This document shows positions 52,405-54,833 of a stretch of 54,833 bases of DNA, piece after piece. Under the pieces are notes generated by a model. It searched no databases. It was not told where the DNA came from and saw only the letters and a list, made by a program, of their open reading frames with translations. The DNA comes from Oscillospiraceae bacterium (lineage in GTDB: Bacteria > Bacillota > Clostridia > Oscillospirales > Acutalibacteraceae): assembly GCA_015065425.1 (NCBI GenBank), contig SVQH01000019.1, positions 1 to 54,833 on the forward strand, read 5' to 3'. Each line of letters begins with the position of its first letter. The first letter of the stretch is position 1. The translations under genes and the position numbers were made by a program.

Positions 52405-52437
52405 GGTACCGTCTGTTTTTTTGGCGGTACTTTTTTT
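52405..52437 (+). terminator. Terminator of pckG
   Basis: GTACCG (52406-52411) with CGGTAC (52425-52430), plus seven T. Confidence 0.75.
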
Positions 52438-52475
52438 ATTATATAGCAAATTACTCGCATCGTGAGTAATTTGCT
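52436..52475. repeat. Palindromic repeat, copy 1
   Basis: TTATTATATAGCAAATTACT begins the element (52436-52455), then an inverted copy GAGTAATTTGCT (52464-52475) closes a 12-bp stem around GCATCGT. A second copy with 21 of 22 identical leading bases is at 54578. Downstream, GATAAATCGTAA (52559-52570) is also shared with copy 2. Confidence 0.75.
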
Positions 52476-52533
52476 TATAATTCGCTTTCAGCTCATTGAA
52501 TGACGCAAGCTTATTGAACAAGAAACACCGATT

Positions 52534-52556
52534 CCCCCAAGACCCGGGGCAGGGGG
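52534..52556. repeat. GC-rich hairpin in AT-rich spacer
   Basis: CCCCC (52534-52538) and GGGGG (52552-52556) flank an inner CCCGGGG; the 23 bases are almost all G or C (about 83%) within a spacer that is otherwise AT-rich. Function unknown; it may be part of the repeat family seen on either side of the sigma-factor cassette. The rest of 52476-52590 holds nothing else recognisable. Confidence 0.5.
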
Positions 52557-52590
52557 TTGATAAATCGTAAGATTTTTTCTTATATTTATG

Positions 52591-52620
52591 TTGACATAAT
52601 ATTACAATTTATATTAAAAT
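52591..52620 (+). promoter_or_regulatory. Sigma-A promoter of the ECF sigma gene
   Basis: TTGACA (52591-52596), 18-base spacer, TAAAAT (52615-52620), 31 bases before the start codon. Confidence 0.55.
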
Positions 52621-52651
52621 AAATATAAAATAAATTTAATGGTGGAAAATT

Positions 52652-53215
52652 TTGGAATTTGATGATAACAGTCTCAGAAATTGTGAAAAGCTGATTGAGC
52701 AATATTCTGATAACTTAAAAAGATTATGTCAAATAAAATTAAATTACAATGTAAGTGAAATTGATGATGTTATAGCAGAAACCAATTTCGCTTTTATGGT
52801 CATGTTTTCAAACGGTAAACTGCCTGATAATCCAAAGGCTTGGCTTTACGGTACTGCAAATAACATAATAAAGAAAAAATATTCTGAAATTGATAATGAT
52901 AAAAAACATAAGGTGAGTTTGGATTCGGACTTTTATGACTTATCTTTTCTGTATGCTACTCCTGATTTTGCAGAAGATATGATATCTGACGAGCATATAG
53001 AACGCTTGGCTCAGGAAATCGAAAGAGAACTTGACAAAGAAGAAAATATTATACTTGAACTTTTTCACCATGAACATAAGTCATTACGTGAAATAGCAGA
53101 TGTTCTTGGTAAAAGCGAAGCTGCAGTTAAACAAAAACATTACCGCCTTTGTAGGAAAATTAAGAAGCGAGTAAAAGAAATTTTAGAAAATTCTGAATAT
53201 TTTTTAAAAAAATAG
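52652..53215 (+). CDS. ECF-type RNA polymerase sigma factor
   Basis: A 187-residue sigma-70 family protein containing only regions 2 and 4. Region 2 lies at about 8-75 (YSDNLKRLCQIKLN, IDDVIAETNFAFMVMFSNG, NPKAWLYGTANNIIKKKY) and region 4 at about 115-175 (KEENIILELFHHEHKSLREIADVLGKSEAAVKQKHYRLCRKIKKRV, with the helix-turn-helix around SLREIADVLGKSEAAVKQ). Start is TTG 52652 with GGTGG six bases upstream; no in-frame ATG gives a full protein. Followed by a membrane protein that is likely its anti-sigma factor, 49 bases later. The codon usage is noticeably more AT-rich than in the housekeeping genes. Confidence 0.88.
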   Translation: MEFDDNSLRNCEKLIEQYSDNLKRLCQIKLNYNVSEIDDVIAETNFAFMVMFSNGKLPDNPKAWLYGTANNIIKKKYSEIDNDKKHKVSLDSDFYDLSFLYATPDFAEDMISDEHIERLAQEIERELDKEENIILELFHHEHKSLREIADVLGKSEAAVKQKHYRLCRKIKKRVKEILENSEYFLKK

Positions 53216-53246
53216 TGTTACTTTTTTTGAAAATTTGCACTATATA
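53215..53246 (+). promoter_or_regulatory. Predicted ECF promoter in front of the anti-sigma-like gene
   Basis: GTGTTACTTTTTT (53215-53227), then TTTGCAC (53234-53240) and TATATA. The same two blocks with the same distance occur at 54742-54773. Proposed as the target of the neighbouring ECF sigma factor; the GTTAC -35 is separated from CAC by 16 bases. Confidence 0.5.
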
Positions 53247-53264
53247 TATGAAGGTGGTGTTATA

Positions 53265-54011
53265 TTGGACAAAAATATATTAAAAAGTATATTAGAAACT
53301 GATTCTTTGCAATTTTCTCGCGAAGAAATCCAAAGTCTCTTGGATGAGGAATTGGAAAAAGAAGCTGAGTTTATGGACACAGAGCTTATTGATATGTGTA
53401 TTGATGTTCTGGAGTCAAAAAAGACATTCGAAAACAAAACAACTTTTTCAAAAAAGAAGATAATAAGAAGTTCATTTGTTATAGCTGCTGTCGTAGGTAT
53501 TTTGGCTTGTATGATAATTGCAGGTACTGCAAAATCATCAAGATTTGACATACCGTCTGAATACATAACCAAAGAAGGTGAATTTTATCGGTTGAACATA
53601 CCTTGGCGAACCGAAACTTTTATAAAAATTCCCGCAAATTATGAAAATTATGTTTTACCGACTTTTTTTGTAAGCGATAAGTGTGTATTATCACAGCCGT
53701 CTCAGGAAGAACAGGATACAATAATACCTTTTACTGTTATTGATTCCGATATCTGCGGAACTGTCTTCATTTATGATAATACTCTGTATTTTGACAGCAG
53801 TTCAGAAAGATTTGTAACACAATGCGTAACAACCAAAACTGAGGGCATCGGACTTCTTACAAACAACGGCTTTAATGTACTGGTAATTTCCACGGGTGAT
53901 GGTTATACTTCCATTTCATATTCTCTTTACGGTATGAATTATACTGTAAGATTAGAAAACTGTGATTATCCTGAAGCTATGGAAATTGCAAAAAATTTCA
54001 AAGGAGAATGA
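53265..54011 (+). CDS. Membrane-anchored anti-sigma-like protein
   Basis: A 248-residue type II membrane protein: cytoplasmic N-terminal part (1-69, acidic, helical, FSREEIQSLLDEELEKEAEF), one membrane segment (70-88, SFVIAAVVGILACMIIAGT) and an extracytoplasmic domain of about 160 residues, mostly beta, with two Cys. No catalytic motif and no classical zinc-binding anti-sigma HxxxCxxC. Position directly after an ECF sigma gene, one membrane segment and an N-in topology support an anti-sigma role; that is inference. Start is TTG 53265 (AAGGTGG upstream); no ATG is in frame nearby. Its stop overlaps the start region of the next gene. Confidence 0.65.
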   Translation: MDKNILKSILETDSLQFSREEIQSLLDEELEKEAEFMDTELIDMCIDVLESKKTFENKTTFSKKKIIRSSFVIAAVVGILACMIIAGTAKSSRFDIPSEYITKEGEFYRLNIPWRTETFIKIPANYENYVLPTFFVSDKCVLSQPSQEEQDTIIPFTVIDSDICGTVFIYDNTLYFDSSSERFVTQCVTTKTEGIGLLTNNGFNVLVISTGDGYTSISYSLYGMNYTVRLENCDYPEAMEIAKNFKGE

Positions 54012-54013
54012 AA

Positions 54014-54514
54014 ATGAAAAAAATTTTTAAAACTTGTATTATTTTTCTTCTTGTCGCAATAAGCATAACACCTGTTCAGGCTTTTGCTTATAATTCACAG
54101 ATGCTCGAATTACAGGAGGTTTTTCTGTCTGAAGAAGAATTTTCCGCAATACTTGAAAACGGTGTAACCGTATATCCTGAAAACCGTGCAACCGGTCTTA
54201 TTGTTGCTCCAACAGTTTCCGTGCAAAAGTATAATGGAGAACTTTTAATCGCAACAAGACTTGAATGTATTTCTACCGTAAAAAAATGCGGTTGCAAACT
54301 TATTGATGTATACAGACGCAAGACTTCTTCTGATTCGTGGTTCCATTACGGTTATTATGAAGATCTTTATTCGGATAGTAATATATCTGAAATTTCAAGA
54401 TTACTTGATGTTCACAGCGGATATTATTACTATGTAAAAGTTACTTTCTATGCAAAGAAAAACATTTTTTCAACTGAAACTTTGGAAGTAACATCACCGA
54501 CTATTTATATCTGA
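54014..54514 (+). CDS. Secreted protein of unknown function
   Basis: A 166-residue exported protein. The signal peptide is KKIFKTCIIFLLVAISITPV with a likely cut after QAFA. The mature part is beta-rich with CGCKLIDVYRRKTSS and SGYYYYVKVTFYAKK; two close Cys could form a disulfide. No family recognised. Both ATGs (54008 and 54014) are in frame; AAGGAG at 54001-54006 has correct spacing only for 54014. It ends the sigma/anti-sigma operon. It may be the sensor, effector or target of the system. Confidence 0.6.
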   Translation: MKKIFKTCIIFLLVAISITPVQAFAYNSQMLELQEVFLSEEEFSAILENGVTVYPENRATGLIVAPTVSVQKYNGELLIATRLECISTVKKCGCKLIDVYRRKTSSDSWFHYGYYEDLYSDSNISEISRLLDVHSGYYYYVKVTFYAKKNIFSTETLEVTSPTIYI

Positions 54515-54534
54515 TTTTTTTTCGCACCACCTTC

Positions 54535-54558
54535 AACCTGCTTCGGCAGGTTTTTTTC
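54535..54558 (+). terminator. Terminator of the sigma-factor operon
   Basis: ACCTGC-TTCG-GCAGGT stem (54536-54541 with 54546-54551), extended by A/T, followed by seven T. The stable TTCG tetraloop makes this a strong signal. Confidence 0.85.
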
Positions 54559-54577
54559 TTTTAAAAAATTTAATATT

Positions 54578-54616
54578 TTATTATATAGGAAATTACTCGT
54601 TTCGCAAGTAATTTGC
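54578..54616. repeat. Palindromic repeat, copy 2
   Basis: TTATTATATAGGAAATTACT (54578-54597) followed by CG, a TTTCGC loop and AAGTAATTTGC (54606-54616). Compare copy 1 at 52436. GATAAATCGTAA recurs at 54634-54645. The rest of 54646-54741 shows only an AT-rich hairpin TATTCT...AGAATA. Confidence 0.75.
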
Positions 54617-54741
54617 ATAGATCACAGTGTGGGGATAAATCGTAAAAGTTATTCTTTTTAAGAGAATATGTACAAATGAACAGCAATTTTCTTGTGTAAT
54701 GTAACAAATATTAAAAAATTGTAAAATAATTTGAATTTTGT

Positions 54742-54773
54742 GTGTTACTTTTTTCATTTTTTTGCACGTATAT
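54742..54773 (+). promoter_or_regulatory. Second predicted ECF promoter
   Basis: GTGTTACTTTTTT (54742-54754; 13 of 13 bases equal to the copy at 53215), six unlike bases, TTTGCAC (54761-54767), then GTATATA. It drives the gene beginning at 54819. Confidence 0.5.
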
Positions 54774-54818
54774 AACAGCAGGAGAAAATCTTGCTTAAAG
54801 GTGAAAGGAGTGAATTGC

Positions 54819-54833
54819 ATGAAAACATTAATG
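54819..54833 (+). CDS. Start of a gene cut by the window edge
   Basis: ATG 54819 with AAAGGAG upstream (54804-54810) begins MKTLM and runs off the window. It lies behind the second ECF-like promoter, so it is probably a member of the same regulon; the product cannot be named. Confidence 0.45.

Follow-up and report, generated by a model that had tools for sequence, protein, structure and literature searches.

What does the extracytoplasmic function (ECF) sigma factor encoded near the right end of contig SVQH01000019.1 control, and how is its activity restrained? The window analysed here is this entire contig (C16; 54,833 bases) of a draft genome of an Oscillospiraceae bacterium (2.79 Mb, 59 contigs, ~95% complete). 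At its right end, a phosphoenolpyruvate carboxykinase (PEPCK) gene is followed by the genes for the ECF sigma factor, a membrane anti-sigma factor and a secreted protein that we denote P3, and then by a terminator-like site and the start of another gene, of which five codons are left (Table 1). We computed the promoter-like sites, their spacing and conservation, and their link to this three-gene unit and to genes of the RHS type; on these grounds, the unit is probably a signaling system that controls giant surface proteins. RHS-type giant repeat surface proteins are of a kind that bacteria use against their neighbours.

The product of the first gene matches TIGR02937 (6.8e-18, 64.8 bits at a cut-off of 42.9). 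As expected of an ECF sigma factor, it contains sigma-70 regions 2 and 4 only (with Pfam, region 4 is above the cut-off and region 2 below it, 19.4 vs 24), spans about 190 amino acids, and adjoins the predicted membrane anti-sigma gene. A first-pass annotation, made from the sequence of the window, assigned a sigma-A type promoter to this gene. Indeed, a site with 11 of the 12 consensus bases is present at 52591-52620, and no ECF-type site was found upstream of the sigma gene (score 4.3, compared with 23.4 upstream of the anti-sigma gene). However, loose sites of the sigma-A-like kind are frequent in the region (18 found vs 11.8 ± 3.8 in shuffles), so that this promoter call carries modest weight.

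The same annotation reported two matching blocks with identical spacing, one upstream of the anti-sigma gene and the other upstream of the truncated gene, and took them for targets of the sigma factor encoded at 52652. Both copies of GTGTTACTTTTTT-N6-TTTGCAC are exact (53215-53240 and 54742-54767), with a variable stretch of six bases in each. Among 100 dinucleotide shuffles of the window, GTGTTACT-N{10,13}-TTTGCAC had a mean of 0.01 matches, and no shuffle contained two. The genome scan proposed at that time bore the motif out: GTGTTACTTTTTT-N{4,8}-TTTGCAC occurs at four sites genome-wide, compared to none for the reversed pattern; besides the two window copies, these are located at the end of contig C38 and on C53. 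In addition, TGTTACNTTTTT-N{5,11}-CACKWW gives seven matches, with none in the control. The 12-mer TGTTACTTTTTT alone is not enriched in the genome (12 sites vs 13 in the control), but at 9 of these 12 sites, TGTTAC is followed after 16 or 17 bases by a -10-like block; a gene lies behind eight of the nine, and the ninth runs antisense to agrB. Following comparison across the family, the two elements are better written as TGTTAC-N16-CACTATATA (53216-53246) and TGTTAC-N16-CACGTATAT (54743-54773), and the family-wide form of the ECF-type promoter as TGTNAC-N16-NACTATATA. The anti-sigma promoter overlaps the sigma stop codon by a single base.

The unit is not confined to this genome. Among 300 genomes of the family, 28 contain a match to P3, which is firm in 23; the P3 relatives come mostly from uncultured Clostridia of goat, sheep, water deer and 'Lapin' samples. 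In 18 of 20 P3 neighbourhoods, a script identified frames with the size and place of sigma and anti-sigma directly upstream, and one of the other two (L195) contains a sigma-like frame. We aligned by hand 30 sites between the sigma and anti-sigma genes from 27 genomes: the spacer is 16 bases in 24 of them, 17 in five and 18 in one, and the G, the following T and the A of TGTNAC never vary. With a model from which the genome in question was left out, a site scoring at least 9.5 was found upstream of the anti-sigma gene in 23 of 31 units, compared to none of the 31 upstream of the sigma gene (best score 9.1). Because the ECF-type promoter precedes the anti-sigma gene and, in these 31 units, never the sigma gene, feedback should act on the inhibitor only. 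In the usual ECF design, sigma and anti-sigma are encoded together behind an autoregulated promoter. In contrast, judging from the position of the sites, activation of the present unit should raise the levels of the inhibitor and P3 only, so that the circuit would be a natural case of feedback on the inhibitor alone, in several genera. The rule has exceptions outside the set of 31, given that sites were detected upstream of the sigma gene in the G302 unit (19.6) and of a further ECF-like gene in L186 (12.0).

Elsewhere in the source genome, the genes behind the nine promoter-like TGTTACTTTTTT sites include the anti-sigma genes of the window and of a second unit, on C58 (L034:5916-6857), which has an almost identical promoter at the same place; the unit of another genome, G076, shares this site and its placement with both. 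In the C58 anti-sigma gene, two copies of the same segment are separated by a run of unread bases. RHS genes follow the sites on C16, C26, C38 and C53, whereas one C40 site leads into a LytTR response regulator gene with a gene for a zinc-phospholipase-C-like secreted protein behind it, and the C52 site precedes a gene in a stretch that, by reading of the neighbourhood, carries mobile-element genes. A model built from 22 sites outside the genus assigned the anti-sigma promoter of the window a score of 23.6, which none of 647 background regions reached. The same model yielded 21.3 for the C58 anti-sigma gene, 18.4 for the C40 response regulator and 15.7 for an operon of LytTR and RHS genes in G261, and, for RHS genes, 21.4 (G305), 18.8 (C26), 18.0 (G316), 13.8 (C16) and 11.8 (C53). 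When only the own genome was left out, the RHS genes of G230 and UBA3323 scored 12.3 and 10.2, respectively.

The gene to the right of the window, which the first-pass annotation suggested looking up, is unreadable there because the window ends with contig C16, but its C53 copy reads as an RHS/YD-repeat gene. Over 171 aligned columns, the start of the C16 gene together with the upstream region is 91.8% identical to C53, and the C16 and C38 contig ends have an exact overlap of 77 bases, as expected where an assembler stops at a repeat. Given this similarity and overlap, the gene interrupted at 54833 very probably belongs to the RHS family, as a copy of the C53-type gene for a secreted RHS/YD-repeat (WapA-like) protein. 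The C53 product is secreted and matches DNRLRE, RHS/YD-repeat (7.6e-42) and CBM_4_9 models, and its gene runs off the contig. Near its start, this gene is split by a frameshift (L007:6061-6142), which could be an assembly error, decay or phase variation. The C26 gene (L067:7078-11917) encodes RHS repeats (9.7e-29), an Rhs_assc_core and a C-terminal AHH nuclease domain (25.7 bits at a cut-off of 22.3). Thus, the C26 copy has a toxin domain after the RHS core, as is characteristic of polymorphic toxins; for C16, C38 and C53, the assembly stops short of the gene ends. Directly behind the C26 gene, where an immunity gene would be expected, there is an unnamed gene of 259 codons, and the two likely form a toxin/immunity pair. 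Because the C26 protein is only ~27% identical to the C53 protein in the matched part, and is not a recent copy, its promoter counts as a separate case.

The comparison covered 10 distinct RHS-type genes whose start could be read, counting the C16, C38 and C53 copies as one and omitting a G318 homologue for which the start was not found. Seven of these carry a site with a score of at least 9.5 (C16-type, C26, G305, G316, G261, G230 and UBA3323), compared to 23 of 555 control regions (Fisher test, 6e-8); without the G261 operon, the count is 6 of 10 (binomial, 9e-7), and at a threshold of 13.5, it is 5 of 10 vs 14 of 555. The controls are those left after removal of 63 regions from motif-selected loci, 19 with a training site and 10 RHS entries; because they still include some true unit genes, the control rate is, if anything, too high. 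RHS repeats were detected with hidden Markov models in the C53, C26, G261, G305, G316, G230 and UBA3323 genes (for the C16 type, via the C53 copy). In shuffles of the own upstream regions, the sites of the C16, C26 and G305 RHS genes were significant at P 0.0005, that of C53 at 0.004 and that of G316 at 0.017. An RHS gene adjoins the unit or lies within 1.3 kb of it in four genomes, namely, in this window (where it is inferred from the gene start), G261, G230 and UBA3323.

Several observations weigh against control of RHS genes by this unit. The sites were aligned by hand, the threshold of 9.5 was fixed after the scores were known, and the C16 RHS gene was chosen on account of the motif. When 26 genomes from the genus are taken together, the loose pattern has 15 matches vs 22 for the reversed control, and only the source genome (9 vs 3) and G305 (4 vs 0) exceed their controls. 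The RHS-type genes of G319, G313 and G304 carry no site (4.3, -2.7 and -4.7, respectively); these genes are RHS-type by the N-terminal part only, since the 600-650 residues fetched end before any repeat. The G261 RHS gene lacks a site in its own upstream region (-0.6), the site there preceding the LytTR gene before it. In the shuffle test, the UBA3323 (P 0.19) and G230 (P 0.11) sites are not significant, and this negative result stands because one base of slack was allowed, although the probe spacers are one base off. The C16, C38 and C53 RHS promoters are mutual copies, with CACGTA instead of CACTATA, and two sister sigma factors of the genome, on C16 and C58, have near-identical promoters. 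Finally, the sister species G305 (96% complete) and G316 (86%) carry the motif upstream of RHS genes but encode no detectable sigma factor of the subfamily (best matches of 50 and 54 bits vs at least 189 for members) and no anti-sigma of this kind; P3 was not searched for in these two genomes.

It is quite conceivable, at somewhat less than even odds, that the unit answers general envelope stress, the RHS genes being a few among many secreted targets and their link to the unit being local to a few genomes. In other genera, the site is also found in front of unit-proximal genes for different secreted or membrane proteins (L187, L188 twice, L185, L195, L208 and L217). A YD-repeat gene is present in one of the 20 P3 neighbourhoods (L178), although several of the 20 contigs end soon after P3. 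Such a local link is harder to reconcile with the presence of the site in front of 7 of the 10 RHS-type genes, from several genera, and with the four such genes near a unit.

It seems rather unlikely that a different sigma factor reads the RHS promoters, be it the C58 sister or the product of any of ten additional ECF-like genes detected in the source genome (E 1e-6), with the window sigma reading its own anti-sigma promoter only. This reading is favoured by G305 and G316, by the almost identical promoter of the C58 unit, by the different -10 block of the C16, C38 and C53 sites, and by the presence of the ten additional genes. However, among the 12 exact TGTTACTTTTTT sites, the flanks of which were inspected, only those on C16 and C58 are located in an ECF operon, and the proximity of RHS genes to the unit in four genomes argues in the same direction. 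In G316, an uninterrupted contig sequence links the PEPCK-like and RHS genes, at the same place as in the window, and lacks the unit; a single copy of the flanking repeat is found at the syntenic place (L095:7350-7374), compared to two direct palindromic copies around the window unit, which fits unit loss. Loss or gain of the unit between the repeats would explain G316, as would another sigma factor that reads the motif. The proposal that the two blocks are targets of the sigma factor at 52652 is supported in part, by sequence comparison: the ECF-type promoters appear tied to this sigma subfamily, with the anti-sigma operon and the right-hand gene as likely targets. Either the C16 or the C58 sigma may read a given site, and G305 and G316 have the sites without a detectable sigma of the subfamily. 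That the T-rich similarity is a chance or low-complexity artefact, as the null scans with the 12-mer and across the genus might suggest, is very improbable given the full-motif and TGTTACNTTTTT scans (4 vs 0 and 7 vs 0), the scores from a model trained on other genera, the 23 of 31 vs 0 of 31 contrast and the promoter positions kept at 9 of 12 sites.

How the sigma factor might be switched on is suggested by its partner. The first-pass annotation stated that the anti-sigma lacks a zinc motif, and indeed, reading of the sequence (53265-54011) revealed no HxxxCxxC, so this is not a zinc-binding anti-sigma (ZAS) protein; nor does it match DUF4179 or DUF4367 (Pfam) or any NCBIfam model. Among 21 aligned relatives, however, 8 match DUF4367 in the outer part and 4 match DUF4179 (best 0.0011), at E 0.01 and with possible overlap between the two sets. 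Small residues occupy positions -3 and -1 behind the membrane helix in all 21 rows, the window protein included, although the column was picked for a near-invariant residue, so that the small -1 residue is partly built in. According to the available text of PMC6066255, RsiV is cut by signal peptidase just behind its helix, at a site shielded by amphipathic helices. By analogy, RsiV-like proteolysis appears to be the likeliest switch of the anti-sigma. The DUF4367 and DUF4179 matches and the -3/-1 residues point to this route and thereby weaken the suggestion that the sensing mechanism may be new.

The third gene was described as encoding an unknown secreted protein, and searches with its relatives place it in an unnamed family: at E 0.1, no Pfam family matches more than one of 21 members (best 0.0033), and the only NCBIfam match is a weak one, in one member. 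The AlphaFold model of P3 shows an initial helix (signal peptide) followed by a sandwich of seven strands, a common arrangement.

Under the favoured scheme, the sigma factor would be expressed from a housekeeping promoter and sequestered at the membrane by the anti-sigma. An envelope signal would act on the outer domain of the latter; by analogy with RsiV, signal peptidase would cut behind the membrane helix, and intramembrane proteolysis would free the sigma. We infer that the free sigma binds the sites and reads TGTTAC-N16-NACTATATA-type promoters. The one between sigma and anti-sigma would yield more inhibitor and P3 but no extra sigma, a negative feedback that limits the response, and the others would drive RHS/YD-repeat genes (including the C26 gene, whose product has the terminal nuclease domain typical of polymorphic toxins) and a LytTR-type regulator gene. 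A more speculative, and on balance improbable, extension assigns a role to P3: as a widespread unit of gut Clostridia, with inhibitor-only feedback and a dedicated beta-sandwich protein, it might sense neighbours or envelope damage and set the output of contact-dependent RHS toxins, with P3 acting as a partner of the outer domain of the anti-sigma, either diffusible or at the surface, by which the cell meters its own response, and with the agrB-antisense promoter tying the toxin response to quorum sensing.

The unit resembles sigma-V/RsiV of Bacillus subtilis (ECF30, DUF4179), for which the available text describes an ECF sigma with a one-pass membrane anti-sigma that lacks the zinc motif and has a signal-peptidase-like site behind the helix (PMC6066255). 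Unlike RsiV, the window protein has no DUF4179 or NCBIfam match, and some of its relatives have DUF4367; furthermore, the window unit includes P3, a feedback promoter for the anti-sigma only and predicted RHS targets. In sigma-P/RsiP of Bacillus thuringiensis, the anti-sigma also lacks DUF4179 and is cut by signal peptidase, but that system responds to beta-lactams through PbpP, and the available text mentions neither P3 nor RHS targets (PMC8844934). The RHS polymorphic toxin WapA and its partner WapI of B. subtilis, a secreted RHS giant with a C-terminal nuclease and a gene directly behind, are matched here by the C26 copy; wapA expression, however, rises in a degU mutant, and no sigma factor is mentioned in the available text of that paper (PMC8321402).

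The literature searched, which included few subscription papers, yielded no link between an ECF sigma and RHS or WapA proteins, as judged partly by title or abstract start (one paper, PMC7712824, contains both terms), no pairing of DUF4367 with a sigma factor or an ECF anti-sigma, and no account of the activation of RHS/WapA-type toxins in gut Clostridia. Each part belongs to a known kind; the novelty lies in the combination of P3, inhibitor-only feedback and putative RHS-type targets. If the scheme is correct, the surface toxins that a cell deploys jointly could be predicted from a short promoter motif, and the outer sensor domain of the anti-sigma would offer a way to approach the signal.

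Table 1. The three-gene unit and adjacent features at the right end of the window
Feature	Coordinates	Strand	Evidence
Dispersed palindromic repeat flanking the three-gene unit, left copy	52434..52477	.	86% identity to right copy
Sigma-A-like promoter of the sigma gene, TTGACA-18-TAAAAT	52591..52620	+	11/12 consensus bases
ECF sigma factor gene, 187 amino acids, TTG start	52652..53215	+	TIGR02937 match
ECF-type promoter of the anti-sigma/P3 operon, G-TGTTAC-N16-CACTATATA	53215..53246	+	model score 23.6
Membrane anti-sigma factor gene, 248 amino acids, TTG start	53265..54011	+	membrane helix with signal-peptidase-like site
P3 (secreted protein), third gene of the unit	54008..54514	+	signal-peptide-like start and predicted seven-strand beta-sandwich; unnamed family
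Intrinsic-terminator-like site 3' of the unit	54535..54562	+	1 found vs 0.8 expected (shuffles)
Flanking palindromic repeat, right copy	54576..54619	.	sequence comparison with left copy
ECF-type promoter of the RHS/YD-repeat gene, G-TGTTAC-N16-CACGTATAT	54742..54773	+	model score 13.8
First five codons of the gene cut at the contig end	54819..54833	+	very probably secreted RHS/YD-repeat (WapA-like)

Some subgroups have promoter dialects of their own (L187, L188, L189 and L196; L179, L182 and L215), namely TGTAAG-N16-GACTATATA, and TGTTACGTTTTCG with GATATA, so that sigma specificity may be readable from sequence. Sites near the unit in other genera (L196:10613, L187:10533, L188:10565, L185:7423, L195:9014 and L208:2575) may mark further targets; several of the respective genes have signal-peptide-like starts, and one is radical-SAM-like by sequence. 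ECF-type promoters with scores of 22.3, 20.5 and 20.2 also precede unnamed genes among mobile-element-like neighbours (L066:3963-4532, on C52 of the source genome, and L098:4746-6845, on C45 of G305); the two of these genes that were tested had no Pfam match above the cut-off and no PADLOC match. The antisense site lies ~100 bases behind the agrB stop codon (L094:5259-6981, C40:18980 on the minus strand; L098:18876 in G305). Transcription from it would run across agrB and an agrD-like frame that has no Pfam match, towards an agrA/agrC-like pair of genes, for a LytTR regulator and a GHKL kinase, and the geometry is the same in the sister species G305.

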